This document shows, piece by piece, positions 51,285-62,876 of a stretch of DNA of 64,000 bases (within the stretch, counting starts at the first letter, position 1; the number at the start of each line of letters is the position of its first letter). The stretch lies in NCBI GenBank assembly GCA_030041335.1, contig JASHOB010000042.1:1-64000 (forward strand), read 5' to 3'. The notes beneath the pieces are model-generated. The model had not been told where the DNA came from and ran no database searches. It saw nothing but the letters and a program-made list of their open reading frames with translations. The position numbers were made by a program, and so were the translations under genes. The DNA is from Alphaproteobacteria bacterium (GTDB lineage Bacteria; Pseudomonadota; Alphaproteobacteria; ATCC43930; CGMCC-115725).

Positions 51285-53306
51285 TTACGACGTTTTGACC
51301 TGCGTCGGGAACCCGCTAATCGTTTTGCTCACGAGCATGGCGGATTCTATCGCTGATTCGAAGCATCCTCCGCTGAAACGGGTTTGCGTCCAGTCGCCGA
51401 CGACGTACAGATTAGAAAACCCGGCCACTTCGGCCGACGAAAATCGGCTCGCAACATTTCCTCCCGCGGGCGTTTGAACGTAAAGATCGGAAAAATCATA
51501 GTTCGCCAGATCGTAGCGGTCGACGATCTGCGACGATTGATATTGCGGCCAAAGCGTTTGGAGTGACTGCGCCATCCATTGATTCGCACAATTGATCGCA
51601 AGCTGTAGCATCGCGTTCGGCGTGGGGGGTGTCGAACCAACATCCATGCAGCCGCAGAAGTAGCCGAGGGTTTGAGGAGCGTTAGGGCCGCTCCACGATT
51701 CCCGCGGCAAGAGTTGCGACATGTCCCCCCAGGAATCATAAGGCTCCGCGAAAGCGGTCATGACGGTCGGGCCGAGATACCAGCCGAGCCCGCTCAGTGT
51801 TGGCTCAAGCCAAAGCTGCAGCGACTGAGTCGCGACGGATCGGCTGCCGTTCAGCGCCGTCATCCACGCGGAGCTTCCTTGAACAAAGGAGGGCTGCATA
51901 TGCATGATTGCAGCCGGCGGAAGGGCGAGAATCACAATATCAAAATCCTTCCCCGCGGTCAGCGTCAGGGTTCCCACCGAAATTGTGCAAGAGCTTAATT
52001 CAAAGTTAGCCCCCTTGATCACGTTGCCGTCCTTGAGCTGGGACCAATCCGGCTGGTTCGGCCAACATGCGAGACCGTTAACTTCGACCAGGGGATCGTA
52101 CGGGCCGCCGTCAGCGGTCTGCGCCTGGATCGATAGCTCGATCGCCGCGATACCTCCGCTATTTCCCGCAAGGAGATTGGTCACGCGCGAAAAGAACTGG
52201 ATCGACATTGATTTCCGGGCCTGTAAAACCTGATAGAATGGTGTGAACACGGTGTCGCCCATGGCCGCTGCCATTTTCCAGACCGGTGCGTCCCGATAGC
52301 CGAATGCCGCCTCCATCGCAAAGCGCAGCGTCACGCCGGCTGCGATGGACCCATTGGCAATGCTTTCCGCATCGCCGCCGGGGAAGGCAAACGTGAGATC
52401 ATAGATCGCCCTGATTGGCGCTGATTCGAGAGCTTCATCAGATGCGTAGCAGCTGGAGAGCCATGCCCGGAAGTCCTGGTCGTTGAGAGCGTCGTAGCCG
52501 GCCTCCCCGCGGCCAAATACGTCGCGCAAGAAGCCGTACGCCATCGCCAGTCCCAGGTTTGCCAGGATCAGAAGGCGATCGGTCTTCTGTGCCATTGCGA
52601 GCGGCCGTGGAGCATAAGCGGGCAAGATCGCCTTTGTGCGACGACTTCCAAGAGCCAACTGCAATTGTAGATTGGCCGTCTTCACTCTCGCCAGCTGTTC
52701 AAAATGATCTTCGGTCGGACTGGCGACAGCCTCGCGGATCGCGTCAACCGCATCTCCGCCCTTCCTGACGAGTTTTCCGACACCGACGGTGTTTTCGACC
52801 CAATCGGCGAGTCTCAAGATCAAGCCCCGAGGTCCCACCATCGGCGCAGATGAGGCAGCGGCAAGATCAGCTACGGTTTGGTCCCCGGGCTCGCCGGGCC
52901 ATTGCGGCAAGTTGGCGAAATTCCAGGGTGCCCAACTGCCTCCCGGACCGTCCGTCTCCATGAGCGTGAACTGCCGTTGGGGGAGGAAAGCATCGCGCCA
53001 GGTCTGGATCGGACTGGTGGGCGGCGGCTGCCATTCGTCATAGCACGTGCGAATCGTCGCGAACGCGTTCTGGTAGCACCCGAGCAACATATGCAGGCCG
53101 TGCTCTTCGATCCGGTCGTGGTGCTCGGCGGCGCGGCCGCTCGCGCATTTGCCCCCCAGCCGCCAACCCTGCGCGTAGAGGGTCACTTGGTATCGGTCTT
53201 GCTGTTCAGGCGCAGTCAACCAGAACGCTGCGGCGACGCCTGCCGGACCGCCACCGAGAATGACGATTTTCGTCGGAGCGGGTTGGGTTCCCTGTCCGTT
53301 AGTCAT
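51285..53306 (-). CDS. large FAD-dependent oxidoreductase, carotenoid-desaturase/isomerase-like (B)
   Basis: A 673-residue flavoprotein. The ADP-binding motif IVILGGGPAGVAAAFWL is at residues 14-30, followed by the GWRLGGKCASGR segment that contacts FAD in phytoene-desaturase relatives, then EEHGLHMLLGCYQNAF. The middle is variable, and the C-terminus has NLYVVGDWTQTRFSGGCFES, the usual FAD-closing motif. It is about 40% longer than typical amine-oxidase-fold enzymes. A second homologue lies two genes upstream, with a decarboxylase-family gene between. The substrate is unknown; an isoprenoid or polyketide is possible. Confidence 0.75.
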   Translation of the reverse strand: MTNGQGTQPAPTKIVILGGGPAGVAAAFWLTAPEQQDRYQVTLYAQGWRLGGKCASGRAAEHHDRIEEHGLHMLLGCYQNAFATIRTCYDEWQPPPTSPIQTWRDAFLPQRQFTLMETDGPGGSWAPWNFANLPQWPGEPGDQTVADLAAASSAPMVGPRGLILRLADWVENTVGVGKLVRKGGDAVDAIREAVASPTEDHFEQLARVKTANLQLQLALGSRRTKAILPAYAPRPLAMAQKTDRLLILANLGLAMAYGFLRDVFGRGEAGYDALNDQDFRAWLSSCYASDEALESAPIRAIYDLTFAFPGGDAESIANGSIAAGVTLRFAMEAAFGYRDAPVWKMAAAMGDTVFTPFYQVLQARKSMSIQFFSRVTNLLAGNSGGIAAIELSIQAQTADGGPYDPLVEVNGLACWPNQPDWSQLKDGNVIKGANFELSSCTISVGTLTLTAGKDFDIVILALPPAAIMHMQPSFVQGSSAWMTALNGSRSVATQSLQLWLEPTLSGLGWYLGPTVMTAFAEPYDSWGDMSQLLPRESWSGPNAPQTLGYFCGCMDVGSTPPTPNAMLQLAINCANQWMAQSLQTLWPQYQSSQIVDRYDLANYDFSDLYVQTPAGGNVASRFSSAEVAGFSNLYVVGDWTQTRFSGGCFESAIESAMLVSKTISGFPTQVKTS

Positions 53307-53362
53307 TTTCGCCTCTCTATCCTGCGCTCAACCAGAGAGCTGAAACGTCGAAATAGGACCCG

Positions 53363-54304
53363 CTACGAAGTAACGACAATCTCGGAACCGGAAAGGGCTT
53401 CAAAATCGAAAGTCGCCCACGCGGCAAACGTGACCGGCAACGTGGTCGAGGCGCCCCCTGGAGCGACGCCGAGCAAATCATTCACGATCCCGTGACTTTC
53501 GCAGGTCGTGATTTTCACTACAAATCGGTCCCATATCGGTCCTCCGCCAGCGAAGCTTGTCACTTTGATCGGCGAGTTCACGATGGCTTGGTAGCATGCC
53601 TCATCCGGCACGTCGGACGCGCGAAACTGCTTCAAGACAATGCAGTCGATCGTCGGCTGCAGGCGAAGCGCCCGAAGGACCTCTGCACCCAGTCCGCCCA
53701 GCAGACCGGTGATCAACCCTTCCGCGGCTTGTGCCGCGCTTGGCCAGACCGACGTGGGTGGACCGGCCGACTGCGTTTGCGCCGCGCAATAGAGAACGTC
53801 GTGTTCGCCTTGGGTATTCGTCGACAACGTGCGAAAGAAGGTCGTTTTGCAGGAAAAATCGGTTACGCCGGGCGCATCGCCGGCGACGCGGATTTTGGCA
53901 CCGACTTTTGGCCAGCCCCAGACCTCTCGACCCGTGACCATGCCGATAGTGTAGTCAATGAAAACGTAGGGGGCCCAAAATACCAGTCGCGGCAGGAGCT
54001 CCCCCGAACGGTACTCCAGGAGAGGGGCCCAAATTGCGGCTTCGCGGCCCGGCAGCCAACCGACGACGTCGGCTCCGGATGTGCACCGCGCGATATCCAT
54101 GAAGCTGAACACGGCGACGGGCAGTGGCACTTGATAGCGAACCGACCCGGCCGCTGCCGGAGTGAGGAGCGTATCGACCAGATTCTGCAATGCCTGCGTG
54201 CTGGCTTCGACACAAAAGACATGTGCTTTCGCGTCGGTGAACACCCCCGGCGGTGCAAGAGAGGCGGCGCCGTGACGGAGCCACGAGATGAACGGCGCGC
54301 TCAC
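53363..54304 (-). CDS. acetoacetate decarboxylase-family protein
   Basis: A 313-residue protein with the family hallmark GREVWGWPK at residues 125-133, where the last Lys is in the position of the Schiff-base lysine, and FVFWAPYVFID-like sequence just before it. Relatives include acetoacetate decarboxylase and enzymes with aldolase-dehydratase activity in polyketide-like metabolism. It overlaps the upstream flavoprotein gene by 4 bp and is followed by the second flavoprotein gene after 57 bp. A role tailoring the product of one flavoprotein is an inference. Confidence 0.75.
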   Translation of the reverse strand: MSAPFISWLRHGAASLAPPGVFTDAKAHVFCVEASTQALQNLVDTLLTPAAAGSVRYQVPLPVAVFSFMDIARCTSGADVVGWLPGREAAIWAPLLEYRSGELLPRLVFWAPYVFIDYTIGMVTGREVWGWPKVGAKIRVAGDAPGVTDFSCKTTFFRTLSTNTQGEHDVLYCAAQTQSAGPPTSVWPSAAQAAEGLITGLLGGLGAEVLRALRLQPTIDCIVLKQFRASDVPDEACYQAIVNSPIKVTSFAGGGPIWDRFVVKITTCESHGIVNDLLGVAPGGASTTLPVTFAAWATFDFEALSGSEIVVTS

Positions 54305-56469
54305 GTTCCGGGCCCTTCCGAGGGCCGACGCCGAAGGAAATCATATCCCACGATCACGGCCGGCTCGCCGCAAATCGCGCGCGACGCCGCCGCGCCAGAC
54401 ATGACTGCTCCTTCGATGGTGGTTGTGTTGAAGCCGTGGCGAGTGCCCTCGCCAGCAAGAAACAGATTGTCGAAGCCCGTCTCATTCGGATACAGCCGGT
54501 ATTGGGTGGTTCGCGCTGCAGAGAGCGTGCAACACTCGGTCGGATCGATGTTTGCCCGCCAGAATTGCGCGTCAAATCGAGCTTCGCCTGTGACGGACGT
54601 CGGCGCGTGAAGCACGCTCCAATCGAAGACGTCGCCAGAACTCGCCCGCGGCCACATCGCGTATGACGATTTGTTCAACCATTCGATCGCCGCCTGGCGG
54701 ATCTCCTGGCTCGCGGTCGCCGGGACGCTCGTATCCGAAGATGGCTGGCGATACAGAGTCGTTTTGTAGGTGCCGGTCAGATAGTGCAGCGACAGCGGCG
54801 CCGGCGGTGGCCACGGCTCGAAAGCAAGGACTTGGGTCATATCCGCCCAGATGTCGAGGTATTCCGGGCCTGCGACAGTCGCCGCCTTTGCCGTGGTCCA
54901 TCCCAGCCCGGCGGCGCTCCGATCGCACCAGAGTTGGACTCCTTGCGAAGGAACGATGCCGACGTTGGTGACGTAATCACGAAAGGGCTCGCTTGCCTCG
55001 ATCAATTGGGCGCACATGCTTTGGTCCTCATCGTTCAGAGGCTTATATGCGCCGAGCGAAATCGCGAGTATCACCCGGTCGAAATCTAGTCCGCGTTCCA
55101 GCGTTTCGGTTCGGACCGCTGGCCATTGGCACCAGTGGCTCTCGAAATTCACTCGTGCGTCACGCATCTTGTCGCCGTCGCGGAGCTGATCCCAGAGCGG
55201 TTCGGCGGGCCAAACCGTTAAGCCGTCGAGCGGGCATGTGGGCATGTAGTCGCCGGCGATGGTATCGGCTTGCACATCGAGCCGGATCGTCTGCACACTT
55301 TTCTTGTCGGCCGATAACTCGATACTGGTTACTTTACGAAAGAACCTAAAGCTGACGCTGCCGAGGAGATGTTCGTAAATTGGCGCGATAACGGCCTCTC
55401 CCATACCCGCTTGAAGCTCCCACATCATCGAGCCTTTGTAGGTGCCTACTAGGCGCATGATCACGCCTAGCGCGGCACCCGCGGCGTACGATGGACTTGC
55501 GACGTCGCCATCCTCATATTGGAACAACGTGTCGTAAACCGTCCGCACGACGCTTGAGGTCGCGACGACCTTCGTATTGGCACCGTGGCTACAGAGCCAT
55601 TCACGAAAGTCACGGTCGTCGATCGACTCAAGTGGGCGATCGGGCAGCACGAGATCTTCGGTGATCCCCTTAACCACGGCCCAAAAGACCTCAAGGACGT
55701 CGTGCAGCATGGTCTGCCCGCCCGCAGCTAAGTTTGCATCGCGCGCTTCGCCCAAGAGATCAACGAGGTGCCGTAAGTCGCGCTCGTTTTGTCCGAAGAG
55801 ACTGGATCCGAGGGATCGCAAATGCTCGCGCGCGGCCGCGAGCGCCGACCCGACCTTCGACTTGTTTCGTCCAAAGAGACAGAAACCGACGGATCGCAAA
55901 TGCTCGCGCACGGCGCCGAGCACCGACCCGAGCTTTGGTGATCCTGCGACTTGTGGAGCTTCGGTTGGCGCTCCCTGCTCCGGTTCCGCGACGAACTCGA
56001 GGAGCCAGCCGATGACCGTCTCTATGATCTGACCCCATGTCGGCAGCAACGTCCCGTCTCCGGGGACACCGTCATTGGCGGGCCATGTGAGTGGCCAATA
56101 TCGCCACTTGCCATCGTTACCGAGGACACCGACCGGCGTGTAGCGCTGGGGCTTGACCGCGTCTTGCCACGTGGCCAGTTTCGAACCCGGCCCCGCGCCA
56201 CGCGCGTCGTAGACTTCTCGAAGCATTTGGAAAACGTTTTCGTAGCAGCCGAACCAGACATGGAGCCCATGCTCTAGATTGCGCGGGATACATTCTGAAT
56301 CGTGGCGGCGGACCTCTCGCCCGCTCGCCGCCTTGCCGCCAAGCCGCCAGCCCAGCTGGTAAACGACGACTTCATATTGGTCGCGCAACGTTTGGGTCTT
56401 ACTGAGTTGGTAGGCGGCGCTCAGGCCGGCCATGCCCCCACCCAGAATCGCGACTTTGATCTTCGCCAA
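54301..56469 (-). CDS. large FAD-dependent oxidoreductase, carotenoid-desaturase/isomerase-like (A)
   Basis: A 722-residue homologue of the protein at 51285. It has KVAILGGGMAGLSAAYQLSK at residues 4-23, YQLGWRLGGKAASGR, then LEHGLHVWFGCYENVFQMLR, and a C-terminal NLFLAGEGTRHGFNTTTIEG for FAD binding. An insert at residues about 185-245 holds an imperfect tandem repeat (LGAVREHLRSVGFCLFGRNK and LAAAREHLRSLGSSLFGQNE), absent from the sister protein. It starts 24 bp after the cyclase gene stop, so the four genes probably form one operon. Confidence 0.76.
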   Translation of the reverse strand: MAKIKVAILGGGMAGLSAAYQLSKTQTLRDQYEVVVYQLGWRLGGKAASGREVRRHDSECIPRNLEHGLHVWFGCYENVFQMLREVYDARGAGPGSKLATWQDAVKPQRYTPVGVLGNDGKWRYWPLTWPANDGVPGDGTLLPTWGQIIETVIGWLLEFVAEPEQGAPTEAPQVAGSPKLGSVLGAVREHLRSVGFCLFGRNKSKVGSALAAAREHLRSLGSSLFGQNERDLRHLVDLLGEARDANLAAGGQTMLHDVLEVFWAVVKGITEDLVLPDRPLESIDDRDFREWLCSHGANTKVVATSSVVRTVYDTLFQYEDGDVASPSYAAGAALGVIMRLVGTYKGSMMWELQAGMGEAVIAPIYEHLLGSVSFRFFRKVTSIELSADKKSVQTIRLDVQADTIAGDYMPTCPLDGLTVWPAEPLWDQLRDGDKMRDARVNFESHWCQWPAVRTETLERGLDFDRVILAISLGAYKPLNDEDQSMCAQLIEASEPFRDYVTNVGIVPSQGVQLWCDRSAAGLGWTTAKAATVAGPEYLDIWADMTQVLAFEPWPPPAPLSLHYLTGTYKTTLYRQPSSDTSVPATASQEIRQAAIEWLNKSSYAMWPRASSGDVFDWSVLHAPTSVTGEARFDAQFWRANIDPTECCTLSAARTTQYRLYPNETGFDNLFLAGEGTRHGFNTTTIEGAVMSGAAASRAICGEPAVIVGYDFLRRRPSEGPGT

Positions 56470-56493
56470 GCCTGCGTCCCCCCTCTCTCGGCC

Positions 56494-59400: not shown

Positions 59401-60663
59401 AGCGTCGCACAAGACCTCGCCATTCGCTGCCTGCATCAGCCTGGCGCCATAGTTGAGCACGGGTCCGTCGAGAAGGTATTCGCGCCGGATAGCGTTGCCG
59501 ACGACGCCGCAGAAAACCCGCCCGGTGGCGACGCCAATCGCGCACGGGATGTTCAGAGCCAATAATTTATCGCGAACGCGCTTGGCGATACCCGCGGCCC
59601 GGGACGCGTTGCTCTCCAGCCCAAAGGGCGGAAGTCCACAGACAACGACTGCAACGACGCCTTTTTCGCCGGCAATCACGCTGAATATCTCGACGTCGAG
59701 CGCTTGCGCAGCATTGGCGACCGCTTCGAAAGTCATCTGCAACTGACGAGCGCCGGCGAGGTCGGGCGTGTCAGGCTCGCCGAGACGAACGAAAACGAGG
59801 CTGACTATCCGAAACTCGGTCATCCATGATTCGAGCTTGCTGCGTAACATCACGATGCGCGGCACGAAGGAGTCTGGCGCCGCCACGGAAGGCACCGGAT
59901 GGTCTGGGCTAAGAGTCCGTGGTACCCGCGCTTCGCCTTCCAACCGGAGGAGACGCACCACCCCGTTTGCAGGGTCGTCCGGGTCGGGGATGGGCTCGAT
60001 CACTGCGGATGGAGCGATGAGCTGCGCCATTCGTGGGTCGAGGATGATGTCGCCAGGCTGCCCCTTGTGCGAGATCGCCCCGATGGTTTTCCACGGTTCG
60101 CCGGCAAGAACAAGAAAGCTTCGCTTGCTGTCGCTTGTAAGAAGGATCGTCGTAAACATCCCAGCGACAAGGGTGAGCCGGCGATGCATTGGCAGCGCAG
60201 GCTCGAGCGGCCACAGCTGTGCTTTCTCGCGCAGCGCAAGTGCGGCCCGCGCCGCTTGAAAATGCGGCGACGGCAACGACGGATCGCTGCGCCATAGGGC
60301 GATCACGCCGTCGCCCTCGATGCAGACGATGTCTCCGCCTTCGCCGTCGACGGCATCGATGACATCGCTGAAATACGCGTTTAGAGCGCCCCCGAGGCGC
60401 TCGGCGCCGTCTGGGCCTAGCGCGGCAACCCTGTCCGTCATTGACGTCGAATCGACAAGGTCGACGAACAGCACGATTCCGGGAAAGACTGTCCGCGGCC
60501 CGGCGTCGCGAAGGAGAGACGTCCCCAACTCATCGCGCAACAACCGAGGCGCGAAGCCTTCCGGTGCCGTTGGGCCCGACAATTCTCGCAAGGTTCCCCC
60601 TTGCCCGCCGTACCGGGTATTCTGCCGTTCGGGCGCGGCATTTGCAAGTGAACGACCCCGCAA
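56494..60663 (-). CDS. soluble-adenylyl-cyclase-like protein: two cyclase domains, AAA-type ATPase, helical repeats
   Basis: A 1389-residue signalling giant. The first class III cyclase domain (about 60-250) keeps both metal aspartates, D68 (LFVDLVDST) and D118 (IEGDGVIALW). The second (about 280-455) has lost them (LVFVRLGEP and GEKGVVAVV) but keeps the rest of the fold (GVATGRVFCGVVGN, LNYGARLM). An ATPase follows with Walker A GEPGAGKS at 499-506 and Walker B VILIDDLHWID, then a long helical-repeat tail. This C1-C2-ATPase-repeat order is that of animal soluble adenylyl cyclase, which senses bicarbonate. The true start may be internal; 60663 is the longest option. Confidence 0.83.
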   Translation of the reverse strand: MRGRSLANAAPERQNTRYGGQGGTLRELSGPTAPEGFAPRLLRDELGTSLLRDAGPRTVFPGIVLFVDLVDSTSMTDRVAALGPDGAERLGGALNAYFSDVIDAVDGEGGDIVCIEGDGVIALWRSDPSLPSPHFQAARAALALREKAQLWPLEPALPMHRRLTLVAGMFTTILLTSDSKRSFLVLAGEPWKTIGAISHKGQPGDIILDPRMAQLIAPSAVIEPIPDPDDPANGVVRLLRLEGEARVPRTLSPDHPVPSVAAPDSFVPRIVMLRSKLESWMTEFRIVSLVFVRLGEPDTPDLAGARQLQMTFEAVANAAQALDVEIFSVIAGEKGVVAVVVCGLPPFGLESNASRAAGIAKRVRDKLLALNIPCAIGVATGRVFCGVVGNAIRREYLLDGPVLNYGARLMQAANGEVLCDAETAGATAALFVFSAAEELIVRGRAQPLTVHRLIDSQPQPSFPATRRGRLFGRDAELAELRDRLERVGRGDGGLVVLEGEPGAGKSRLLQETGRDARASGFCMIETSTHVIERATAYYSFRSVVRQLLQDPGEGSASSTSSMRKRLGDALREADLAQKAALIEDIVPLGVEISELAAQIKGAARKTGIEDIVVTLAAMRASERPVVILIDDLHWIDALSAELLITLSRRLPQMLIVATSRPRDAATAPYAAQVMDRAVRQIEVRRIDARATAQMLSDLLGAPSIPRRLTEFVHGQSEGLPIHVEQLALALRERELIETVDGRCRVVTPDLAAAAVPSRLSDVVVDRIDKLSQTDQLVAKVASVIGRTFEFEVLLATYPFPIEAETLDESISRLERAGILAPISGEGGRTHAFRHLIIQEATYDLLSYAQRRPLHRRLVDLIERRHANAPEPYYAELAHHCEHAGETERAIAFRMLAARLSLRRHANDDALMHVERAERLAAQAHLALANAQRAEMALVRGEALHELARFPEAGRQFNDCLRLNGVRRPASSMAMGLSVMAQVAQQASHRLGFVRRPHDAEVRARKKLSAHLNTRLAEHAYFMSNSLELAYDVLAALNQAERIGSVGETIESYGALAIGLGIARLHFLARYYRRRSIETAKNAGELRDQAFAQLFAGVYSQPAGDWSAARLHLAEGATIFGRLGDRFRLQSCLCVSAYVAIGTGDFALARSTFDSFGPDAEAVDNPSVRAWTLAGLSTLDLIEGRSPQPALRRLEIARDPNLHRAEQLQCEGLVAAASLQAGDLEGAERSADVALRNMQQAACTMGIAWISVGAVAETYLALLERALARGERREDLGMRTQEACRAVRAYASGTRICQPRAHWLEARRALLEGRTSRAASFCRRGLEWAERLAMPLDEAFCHLGLVATLAEGQARATQQERGLRLMRNLGARPWGHEAGAWVPAIFNGGG

Positions 60664-61037
60664 GGTGGCCGCCGCCGTGGCTAGGTCCAGATCGGTCGCA
60701 GAACACTGTCCGGCCTTCCCCCAAGAGCTCGGTCGAGGGTTTTGCCATTCCCGCCATCGGCCCTATCTAAACAACATGTCCAGGGCTCCGATGGCATCGA
60801 CCATCGCAAACGCATCATGATCTTGAAGCCGCTATGGGACGCAACCGGCACCGAGTTCGCCGAGCGGCCCGAACTGTGGCGAGCGCAACTACGCCGGCAG
60901 CTGGAAGGATGCGCGTCTCCAATCCCGTGGAGCGCGACGCGAGTGTCGTGCTTGCGCGCGGGTCACGCCGGGGATCGCGACGACAGCAATAGCCGCATCG
61001 AACCAAAAAGGACCAACTCGGCGCACGTCGCCGACGT
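60664..61037. other. 374-bp gap between the cyclase and the SelW-like gene
   Basis: No supported gene in either direction. A plus-strand frame from 60742 runs through this gap and across the minus-strand SelW-like gene; it shows no family pattern and no ribosome site. Confidence 0.35.
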
Positions 61038-61256
61038 TCAGGTGAGACAGTTAGCTATCTCTTCGCTTGTTGGAAAGCGACCGGTCGCCTTCTTTGAGAA
61101 GGCGAGTCGGCCGTCAATTCGAATTTCGAAGACACCGCCACTTGACCGGCGAAGGCTTATTTCCACTGAGGGTCGAAGCTTAAGGATGAGTTCCCGCGCC
61201 TCACGGGCGCGCGGTTCATAGCCTCATTGACCGCAGTATTCGATCTCGATTTTCAT
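61038..61256 (-). CDS. SelW/Rdx-family selenoprotein with in-frame UGA (CxxU)
   Basis: A 72-residue protein read from ATG 61256 through an in-frame TGA at 61224-61226 to a TGA at 61038-61040. It reads MKIEIEYCGQ, then U11, then GYEPRAREARELILKL, SLRRSSGGVFEIRIDGRLAF and SKKATGRFPTSEEIA. This matches Rdx/SelW thioredoxin-like proteins from end to end, and U11 falls exactly where the family has the second residue of CxxC or CxxU. GAGG lies 9 nt before the ATG. A stable hairpin starts 9 nt after the UGA. The alternative is a Cys-to-stop mutation in an otherwise intact gene. Such proteins are small redox proteins. Confidence 0.8.
61194..61226 (-). promoter_or_regulatory. bacterial SECIS-like hairpin after the UGA
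   Basis: After UGA (61226-61224) and GGCTATGAA, CCGCGC (61214-61209) pairs perfectly with GCGCGG (61199-61194) around the loop GCCCGTGAG. The loop opens with G at the 16th nucleotide after UGA, within the spacing I remember for bacterial SECIS elements, where a G in the first loop positions is typical. SelB would bind here to insert selenocysteine. Confidence 0.6.
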
Positions 61257-61448
61257 AAAGTTGTCCTCACGACTTGAAGGCATCTGTACGCCGCTTCGGG
61301 AAGATCCTTCCGTCGGCGCGGTGTCATTCGATACCAGCTCTCTTGGACGGACAAACGCAATTTCGTGATCCGTCCGGATGTCGGCTTGATTGTCCTAAGT
61401 GGATCGCGCTCGCGTTGCAAGGAATTAAATGCTGATCGTCGTCGCCGC

Positions 61449-62876
61449 TCAATGGCGGCGTACGACGTCGTCGAAATGATCGGCCAGAACCTGCGCGATC
61501 ACCATAGTCACCCGCTTGCCGGTCGGGATATGGAGAAATTCGTTCGGTCCATGGGCGTTGGATTGCGGCCCGAGAACGCCCGTCACCACGAACTGCGATT
61601 CGGGGAATTTCTCGCCAAGCATGGCCATGAACGGAATTGTGCCGCCTTCGCCCATATAGGCGGCCGCTGCACCGAAGGCGCTGCGCGACGCTCGCTCGAG
61701 CGATTGTTCGAGCCACGGCGCCAAGGTTGGTGCGTTCCAGCCCCGGGCGACAGGATCGACGGCGAGCTCGACCGCGGCGCCATTGGGCGGCTGCGAGGCG
61801 AACAAGGCCTTCACGACAGCGCGCGCCCGGTCACCATCCAAGGTCGGCGGTAAGCGCAGGCTAAGCTTAAGCGAGGTCGATGGCAGCAAGACGTTGCCGG
61901 CGTCCTCCGGGTTCGGCAATCCATCAGCTCCGATGACCGCGAGTTGCGGCCGCCACGTCCGGTTCAGCACGAGTTCGGTCAAGTCGCCGGCCATCGGCGT
62001 CGTCCCCGGAACGAATGGAAACTTGGCATAGACCTGGTCGCCAAGGGCGCGAGCAGCGCGGGATGCTTGCTCACGCCGTTCCCGGGGAATTTGTACCTGC
62101 AGTTCCGCGATACGAACTTCGCCCGTCGCTTCGTCCTCGAGCCGAGAGAGAAGCTGGCGCGCGATGCGAAAGCTCGATGGCACCACGCCCGACGCATCGC
62201 CGGAATGAACGCCCTCGTTCAATACGCGCACAGTCAGCGTGGCATTGAGTAAGCCCCGCAGCGACGTTGTCAACCAGAGCTGATCGTAGTTGCCGCAGCC
62301 TGAATCGAGACAAACGACGAGCGACGGCTTTCCGATGCGCGCCGCGAGATGGTCGACGTAAAATGGCAGGTCGTAACTGCCCGATTCCTCGCAAGCCTCG
62401 ATCAGGATGACGCAGCGCGTGTGCTTCAGATGCTGGTCGCGCAGCGCCAGAATCGCTGTCATTGCGCCAAACATGGCGTAGCCGTCGTCGGCGCCGCCCC
62501 GTCCGAACAGTTTGTCGCCTTCGAGCACAGGGCTCCATGGCCCGAGACCCTCGTTCCACCCTATCATCTCGGGCTGCTTGTCGAGATGGCCATAAAGCAG
62601 GACGGTCTCCGTGCGATCCCCGGGGATGTCGATCAGGATCACCGGAGTACGACCCGGGAGATGCACCACCTCGAGGCCGGCGCCGGGCAACGCCGCCATC
62701 CTGGACCGCGCCCAATGCTCGAACAGCGCGACCGCCTCATCGATATGGCCATGAACCTGCCAATCGGGATCGAAATGCGGCGACTTATTGGGAATCCTAA
62801 TGTACTCGACCAGGGCGGGAACGACGGCATCGTCCCAGCTTTGATCAACGAAGCCCTTCAGTCGTGCAATGTCCAT
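61449..62876 (-). CDS. M20-family metallopeptidase (dipeptidase-like)
   Basis: A 475-residue zinc amidohydrolase. Metal and catalytic residues are visible: LLYGHLDKQPE (His and Asp), GRGGADDGYAM (bridging Asp), LIEACEESGS (general-base and metal Glu pair), VCLDSGCGNY and the late NAHGPNEFLHI (last metal His). The dimerisation domain occupies about 205-370. It hydrolyses a dipeptide, N-acyl or carbamoyl amino acid; the length fits the carnosinase-like M20 branch. The gene lies 192 bp upstream of the SelW-like gene on the same strand. Confidence 0.9.
   Translation of the reverse strand: MDIARLKGFVDQSWDDAVVPALVEYIRIPNKSPHFDPDWQVHGHIDEAVALFEHWARSRMAALPGAGLEVVHLPGRTPVILIDIPGDRTETVLLYGHLDKQPEMIGWNEGLGPWSPVLEGDKLFGRGGADDGYAMFGAMTAILALRDQHLKHTRCVILIEACEESGSYDLPFYVDHLAARIGKPSLVVCLDSGCGNYDQLWLTTSLRGLLNATLTVRVLNEGVHSGDASGVVPSSFRIARQLLSRLEDEATGEVRIAELQVQIPRERREQASRAARALGDQVYAKFPFVPGTTPMAGDLTELVLNRTWRPQLAVIGADGLPNPEDAGNVLLPSTSLKLSLRLPPTLDGDRARAVVKALFASQPPNGAAVELAVDPVARGWNAPTLAPWLEQSLERASRSAFGAAAAYMGEGGTIPFMAMLGEKFPESQFVVTGVLGPQSNAHGPNEFLHIPTGKRVTMVIAQVLADHFDDVVRRH

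Follow-up and report, generated by a model that had tools for sequence, protein, structure and literature searches.

The window, a 64,000-nucleotide stretch of an alphaproteobacterial contig, contains a gap of 785 bp between an M20 peptidase gene, which ends at 61449, and a long ORF starting at 60663. A selW-like gene lies alone in this gap on the minus strand. Its frame (61256-61038) runs for 72 codons from an ATG to a terminal TGA: the start codon and nine further sense codons lead up to CGQ, codon 11 is UGA, and 61 sense codons follow. The codon-11 TGA is the sole internal stop, stands in the context YCGQ-U-GYEPRA and occupies the second redox position of a CxxU motif. Our reading of the frame agrees with the initial annotation, which had described a 72-codon minus-strand frame with a lone internal UGA in this gap and had also placed a ribosome site ahead of the ATG, where we find a GAGGA. 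The product has 72 residues, MKIEIEYCGQ-U-GYEPRAREARELILKLRPSVEISLRRSSGGVFEIRIDGRLAFSKKATGRFPTSEEIANCLT. The features of the locus are as follows.

61038..61256, minus strand: selW-like gene (Rdx family), 72 residues with Sec at residue 11, plus the terminal stop; Pfam Rdx and TIGR02174 match, pN/pS 0.27-0.43 after the UGA
61264..61268, minus strand: Shine-Dalgarno-like GAGGA, 7 nt before the ATG; from the sequence
61224..61226, minus strand: UGA codon 11, putatively read as selenocysteine; UGA at the equivalent codon in relatives, Cys in Cys-type named homologues
61224..61235, minus strand: CxxU redox motif (Cys-Gly-Gln-Sec); frame reading and alignment
61195..61211, minus strand: SECIS hairpin, 6-bp stem CGCGCC/GGCGCG with loop CGUGA at 61201-61205; RNAfold, relatives and bacterial SECIS limits
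61038..61040, minus strand: terminal UGA, presumably the true stop; frame reading and stop codons of the nearest relatives

The long ORF that flanks the gap has a Pfam AAA domain and a weak cyclase match below the cut-off, and part of a kdpA gene lies beyond it. Two flavoproteins encoded nearby on the minus strand (51288-53327 and 54304-56493) have identical amine-oxidase and NAD_binding_8 Pfam matches. None of three window neighbors of the selW-like gene has a match among the flanks of the seven nearest loci, and these flanks revealed no conserved neighbor hinting at a SelW substrate. Two pairs of flanking frames from those loci do match each other: one, at L080 and L081 (73% over 478 residues), we take to be a sugar-phosphate guanylyltransferase, and the other consists of antisense frames overlapping SelW itself. 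No relatives of the gene were found in viral contigs, a plasmid search returned one record (Thermomicrobium roseum, 51.5%), and searches of PHROGs and of Rfam (60700-61500, up to E 1) gave no match.

The product belongs to the Rdx / SelW-like family. With C written for U, it matches Pfam Rdx (PF10262) over residues 2-69 (E 6.2e-20, 71.6 bits against a cut-off of 22.6) and TIGR02174 (65.7 against 34.2), both over the cut-off across the whole domain; the Campylobacter equivalog NF041051 scores 79.9, under its cut-off of 88. An AlphaFold model built with Cys in place of Sec has a pLDDT of 96.3, with a strand at residues 2-8 and a helix at 14-27, and shows a thioredoxin-like fold of the SelW kind in which the CxxU follows the first strand and precedes the first helix. 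Among solved structures it comes nearest to SelW-related proteins (2fa8, TM 0.92), with MIEN1 (0.81), mouse SelW (0.76) and, at lower similarity, thioredoxins next in line. The product is a thioredoxin-like protein with a CxxU and most likely acts as a small thiol/selenol oxidoreductase, a role suggested by the motif and the fold.

The genome carrying the gene (5.17 Mb in 262 contigs, 100% complete with 3.65% contamination) encodes the machinery for selenocysteine. Matches over the cut-off and without internal stops were obtained for selB (428 bits against 242), selA (567.5 bits) and selD (422 bits), and a tRNA-Sec scores 76.4 bits and is called SeC with anticodon tca by ARAGORN. The tRNA-Sec, selA and selD adjoin each other on a 197-kb contig, and selB lies on a contig of 92 kb. 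Two more sequences pass the gathering score for tRNA-Sec, but ARAGORN calls them serine tRNAs. In 14 well-known control genomes, selA was over the cut-off in 1, selB in 2, selD in 2 and tRNA-Sec in 5; the tRNA-Sec score alone is not specific, because five of these genomes also match. All four components, which together we take as the mark of a genome able to make bacterial selenoproteins, are present, among them selB and tRNA-Sec, the absence of either of which had been set beforehand as grounds for rejecting the selenocysteine reading.

The SelW-like protein may not be the only selenoprotein in this genome. There are four matches to the UGSC family (PF24696), a family without any match in the 14 control genomes, and two of them have one in-frame TGA, at the U of a UxxC motif.

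G000:C245:610-1086, minus strand: UGSC-family UGA gene (L128), GVGLUSTC
G000:C225:30742-31206, minus strand: UGSC-family UGA gene (L130), GVGLUSTC

A third copy (L129) has Cys at this place (GVGH-C-STC) and no stop, and the fourth match is under the cut-off and without the motif. L128 and L130 are further candidate selenoproteins; together with the SelW gene, at least three genes would therefore use selenocysteine. Formate dehydrogenase alpha, for which TIGR01553 was the sole model used, gave 12 matches, all below the cut-off and none with an internal stop.

The UGA is conserved. The family of the source organism comprises 39 genomes (our own included) with an Rdx match in 14, and 13 of the 14, again including our own, have exactly one TGA, always at the CxxU. 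In the remaining one (G036) the Sec position is occupied by Tyr, and the genome has no selA match. This gene, L035 (G036:C12:36445-36645), reads CKPY and perhaps represents a Sec-to-Tyr loss after loss of the machinery. Three same-genus genomes, the nearest relatives in the set (61-80% complete), have no Rdx match, and neither do the four genomes added by widening from family to order. Among 385 genomes of the class, Rdx is found in 46: one TGA is present in 28, no stop in 17 and one TAA in 1. The last of these, L061 (G377:C179:1227-1448), has an internal TAA in a genome with selA. For the class matches with a UGA other than our own, the position of the UGA was looked at in 11 of 27. Named genomes contributed 53 loci, found by search patterns derived from the selW-like protein, so that N-terminal identity among them is partly selected; UGA is at the position in 20 and Cys in 33. 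The UGA-bearing named loci come from Gemmatimonadota, Verrucomicrobiota, Myxococcota and Actinomycetota besides Pseudomonadota. The in-frame UGA thus stands where homologues have Cys or UGA, as expected of a bacterial selenoprotein, and the Tyr of G036 is the odd one in the family.

The UGA form tends to occur together with selA. In the class, selA is over the cut-off in 27 of 28 genomes with a UGA-type Rdx as against 29 of 357 others (Fisher P 8e-25), the latter made up of 2/18 other Rdx genomes and 27/339 genomes without Rdx. The same holds within the family (11/13 UGA-type genomes against 7/26 of the rest, P 0.0015). Across both comparisons, the UGA-bearing genomes without selA over the cut-off are G053, G003 and G004, which are 77-79% complete.

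The sequence downstream of the UGA evolves as protein. In gap-free comparison with seven relatives, pN/pS over the 61 codons after the UGA is 0.27-0.43, with dS saturated for two of the seven; for the closest relative, from a Xanthobacteraceae MAG (L075), pN/pS is 0.28, dN 0.12 and dS 0.57. These codons are under purifying selection, and a decayed frame would not show such values. The initial annotation had seen the family pattern continue after the UGA to the natural stop, and the scattered stops and frameshifts that would have betrayed decay in relatives are not seen, the UGA being at the same codon in 13 of 14 family matches. At or next to the place of the terminal UGA, the seven nearest relatives have TAA or TAG in three cases and TGA in four, which fits our view that the terminal UGA is presumably a true stop. 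Hairpins also follow it: on the minus strand at 60995-61037 there is one of 6 bp whose loop is only about 11 nt away, outside the 16-37 nt of the SECIS model discussed below, and further on a 7-base stem rich in G-U pairs lies inside that range. The hairpin rule alone cannot therefore separate the two UGAs.

The hairpin after codon 11 begins 12 nt downstream of the UGA, in the fold that is preferred by RNAfold and kept in relatives. Its energy is -10.2 kcal/mol alone and -13.5 kcal/mol when two more C-G pairs on the far side of a bulge (61213-61214 with 61193-61194) are added. The perfect 6-bp stem 9 nt after the UGA that was reported in the initial annotation does exist (CCGCGC/GCGCGG, -10.9 kcal/mol alone), but it is not the fold that RNAfold prefers or that relatives conserve. 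The bacterial SECIS limits stated in PMC13188914 (Fig. 2 legend) are a loop of 3-9 nt with G in one of its first two positions, a stem of 4-16 bp, a UGA-to-loop distance of 16-37 nt and an energy of at most -7.5 kcal/mol. The hairpin has a 5-nt loop CGUGA with G second, 6 bp, 18 nt from UGA to loop and -10.2 kcal/mol, a combination within these limits that is common by chance in GC-rich DNA. In the commoner loop pattern, N1 and N2 form a closing pair (PMC13188914); here these are C and A.

Taken by itself, the hairpin is within chance for GC-rich coding sequence (P = 0.086 at its place and P = 0.258 on energy against synonymous randomisations; z = -2.0, or 8/200, against dinucleotide shuffles), and it is significant only through its relatives. 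The randomisations take their codon background from three window genes and apply it to all rows, which is a simplification. Hairpin energy was dropped as evidence: just 1 of 44 UGA genes had a P value of at most 0.05 in comparison with synonymous randomisations, and the mean z was -0.16. Since energy is uninformative, place, loop and covariation were tested instead. The 44 rows comprise the 20 named UGA loci, our own gene, 12 from the family and 11 of the 27 other class matches, the other 16 being left out.

Stems of 5 bp or more enclosing a 5-nt loop were found at one or other of two registers in 36 of 44 rows, where synonymous randomisation gives an expectation of 6.1; with a CGTG loop required as well, the count is 32 against an expected 0.2. 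For these figures and for the covariation below, we anchored the rows ourselves and picked the registers and the loop motif with the sequences already in view. Eight rows fall short of 5 bp at both registers (L025, L026, L029, L030, L079, L080, L090 and L107); the stems of the first four have one internal mismatch each, and L107 has an 8-bp stem one base off the two registers. Of the 41 rows that have Arg in the loop, 39 encode it by CGT; among the 85 other Arg codons downstream of the UGA in these genes, 7 are CGT. In a loop-anchored alignment of the 41 distinct rows, changes are seen on both sides in 6/6 stem pairs. Pairing cells amount to 89.0% (66.6% when shuffled, at most 52.0% when slid), and the covariation score is 0.535 (0.129 shuffled, at most 0.185 slid); because of the relatedness of the rows, the shuffles do not count as independent trials, while the slid control preserves that relatedness.

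The two registers differ by exactly one codon. The window gene and seven relatives from Xanthobacteraceae, Hyphomicrobiales/Rhizobiales and Acetobacteraceae carry the loop at +19 relative to the UGA, and 31 rows, among them all 12 same-family relatives, carry it at +22, one codon further from the UGA; other loops or places account for 5 of the 44. Between these SelW types the loop is thus shifted by one codon and the stem re-paired. In a tree of 28 rows and 72 columns, in which 3 of 25 inner branches are firm, the window protein groups with the seven +19 relatives (support 99/99) and separately from the three proteins of its own family that were included. This grouping suggests transfer or differential loss.

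We conclude that the locus holds an intact selenoprotein gene in which the codon-11 UGA is decoded as selenocysteine via SelB and the hairpin and the terminal UGA stops translation, and we put the probability of this reading at about 94%. Family and fold, machinery, conserved UGA, selection after the UGA and hairpin covariation were computed here, and we infer selenium insertion, gene expression and the redox role. In the proposed mechanism, Ser-tRNA-Sec would be converted by SelA with selenophosphate from SelD, and SelB would bind the hairpin just after the UGA and deliver Sec-tRNA-Sec to the ribosome, so that the codon-11 UGA would specify selenocysteine and the UGA at the end termination. 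The 72-residue product would then most likely form a selenenylsulfide between Cys8 and Sec11 in thiol/selenol redox reactions.

Three other explanations were weighed. A single base change would be enough to break a Cys-type SelW gene by a nonsense mutation, or to turn a Cys codon into TGA through a sequencing error, and Cys-type homologues do exist. However, 12 same-family relatives and 20 named loci of several phyla likewise have UGA at this codon, and the genome has the Sec machinery that is associated with the UGA form. Conservation of the UGA with purifying selection on the codons after it already refutes this explanation, to which we give practically no credence; selenocysteine was likewise held to be likelier than a simple stop mutation when the gene was first noticed. 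An equally negligible probability attaches to the locus containing two separate short ORFs, or to the plus-strand ORF at 60742-61221 being the real gene. That ORF is longer (159 codons) and unbroken, but it has no Pfam match; the minus-strand product folds like SelW-related crystal structures, and the Rdx match of its frame runs across the UGA, by which this alternative too is already refuted.

Slightly more weight, though still very little, can be given to readthrough of the UGA by a near-cognate tRNA (Trp or Cys) or by release-factor leakiness, with little or no selenium involved. It would be compatible with an own hairpin that is unexceptional in isolation, and selenium insertion is the step that we infer. 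Against it stand the covariation of the hairpin, the presence of selA in 27 of 28 genomes with the UGA-type gene, and the residue at this position in the non-UGA named loci, which in our alignment to SelW homologues is Cys, not Trp, in 33/33.

Accepting selenocysteine at codon 11, we can offer a tentative account of why the machinery is kept in this lineage, to which we assign slightly less than even odds. It would be kept for small redox proteins (one SelW, two of the UGSC family and perhaps others) and not for formate dehydrogenase. The SelW, being of the Xanthobacteraceae/Hyphomicrobiales/Acetobacteraceae type, unlike the SelW of its own family, may have been gained along with its SECIS; from one type to the other the hairpin would have slid exactly one codon relative to the UGA, its stem re-paired and its CGUG loop kept. 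With their two registers, the 44 aligned SelW hairpins form a natural set on which to test how much a SECIS can shift with respect to the UGA. The gene also shows clearly how a caller treating UGA as stop would overlook a real gene or trim it to 10 codons.

SelW-like CxxU selenoproteins have been known in bacteria since the 2000s (PMC1088965, PMC2398784, PMC13188914). The last lists SelW-like (PF10262, CxxU) as a bacterial selenoprotein family 'predicted with high confidence', and the first two describe it as the most abundant selenoprotein family in data from the Sargasso Sea and from GOS. Among the matches listed in our literature searches, none was an experimental study of a SelW-like protein from bacteria, and the available parts of PMC9312934 and PMC5029168 do not mention 'SelW'. 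For Alphaproteobacteria, a 2006 survey gave formate dehydrogenase as the sole selenoprotein (PMC1794560), and in a 2025 paper one alphaproteobacterium is already credited with three selenoproteins (PMC12013277). The SelW and the UGSC-family candidates would be additions to what the 2006 survey reported for this group.

Compared with the Cys-type Rdx proteins found in the class (YCTQC-type, such as 2fa8 of Agrobacterium), the protein has the same fold (TM 0.92, rmsd 0.9, 38% identity), and in the Cys type Cys replaces Sec. The Cys type is the higher-scoring group (94-117 bits as against 43-66 for the UGA type), and selA is present in only 2 of the 18 class genomes whose Rdx lacks a TGA. Mammalian selenoprotein W carries a CxxU. 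It shares the fold (2npb, TM 0.76) at 27% identity. The eukaryotic SECIS, according to PMC13188914, lies in the 3' UTR, whereas here it is in the coding region. With the bacterial SelW-like/SELENOW-like proteins (PF10262) the gene shares the family, the CxxU, a UGA at the U and a SECIS-like hairpin inside the coding region. It differs from the 12 same-family relatives in its loop at +19 instead of +22, and from the usual case in a genome where the TIGR01553 search found no Sec formate dehydrogenase. There is no substantial difference from the bacterial SelW-like proteins, and the selW-like gene is a further member of this already known family and not a new kind.
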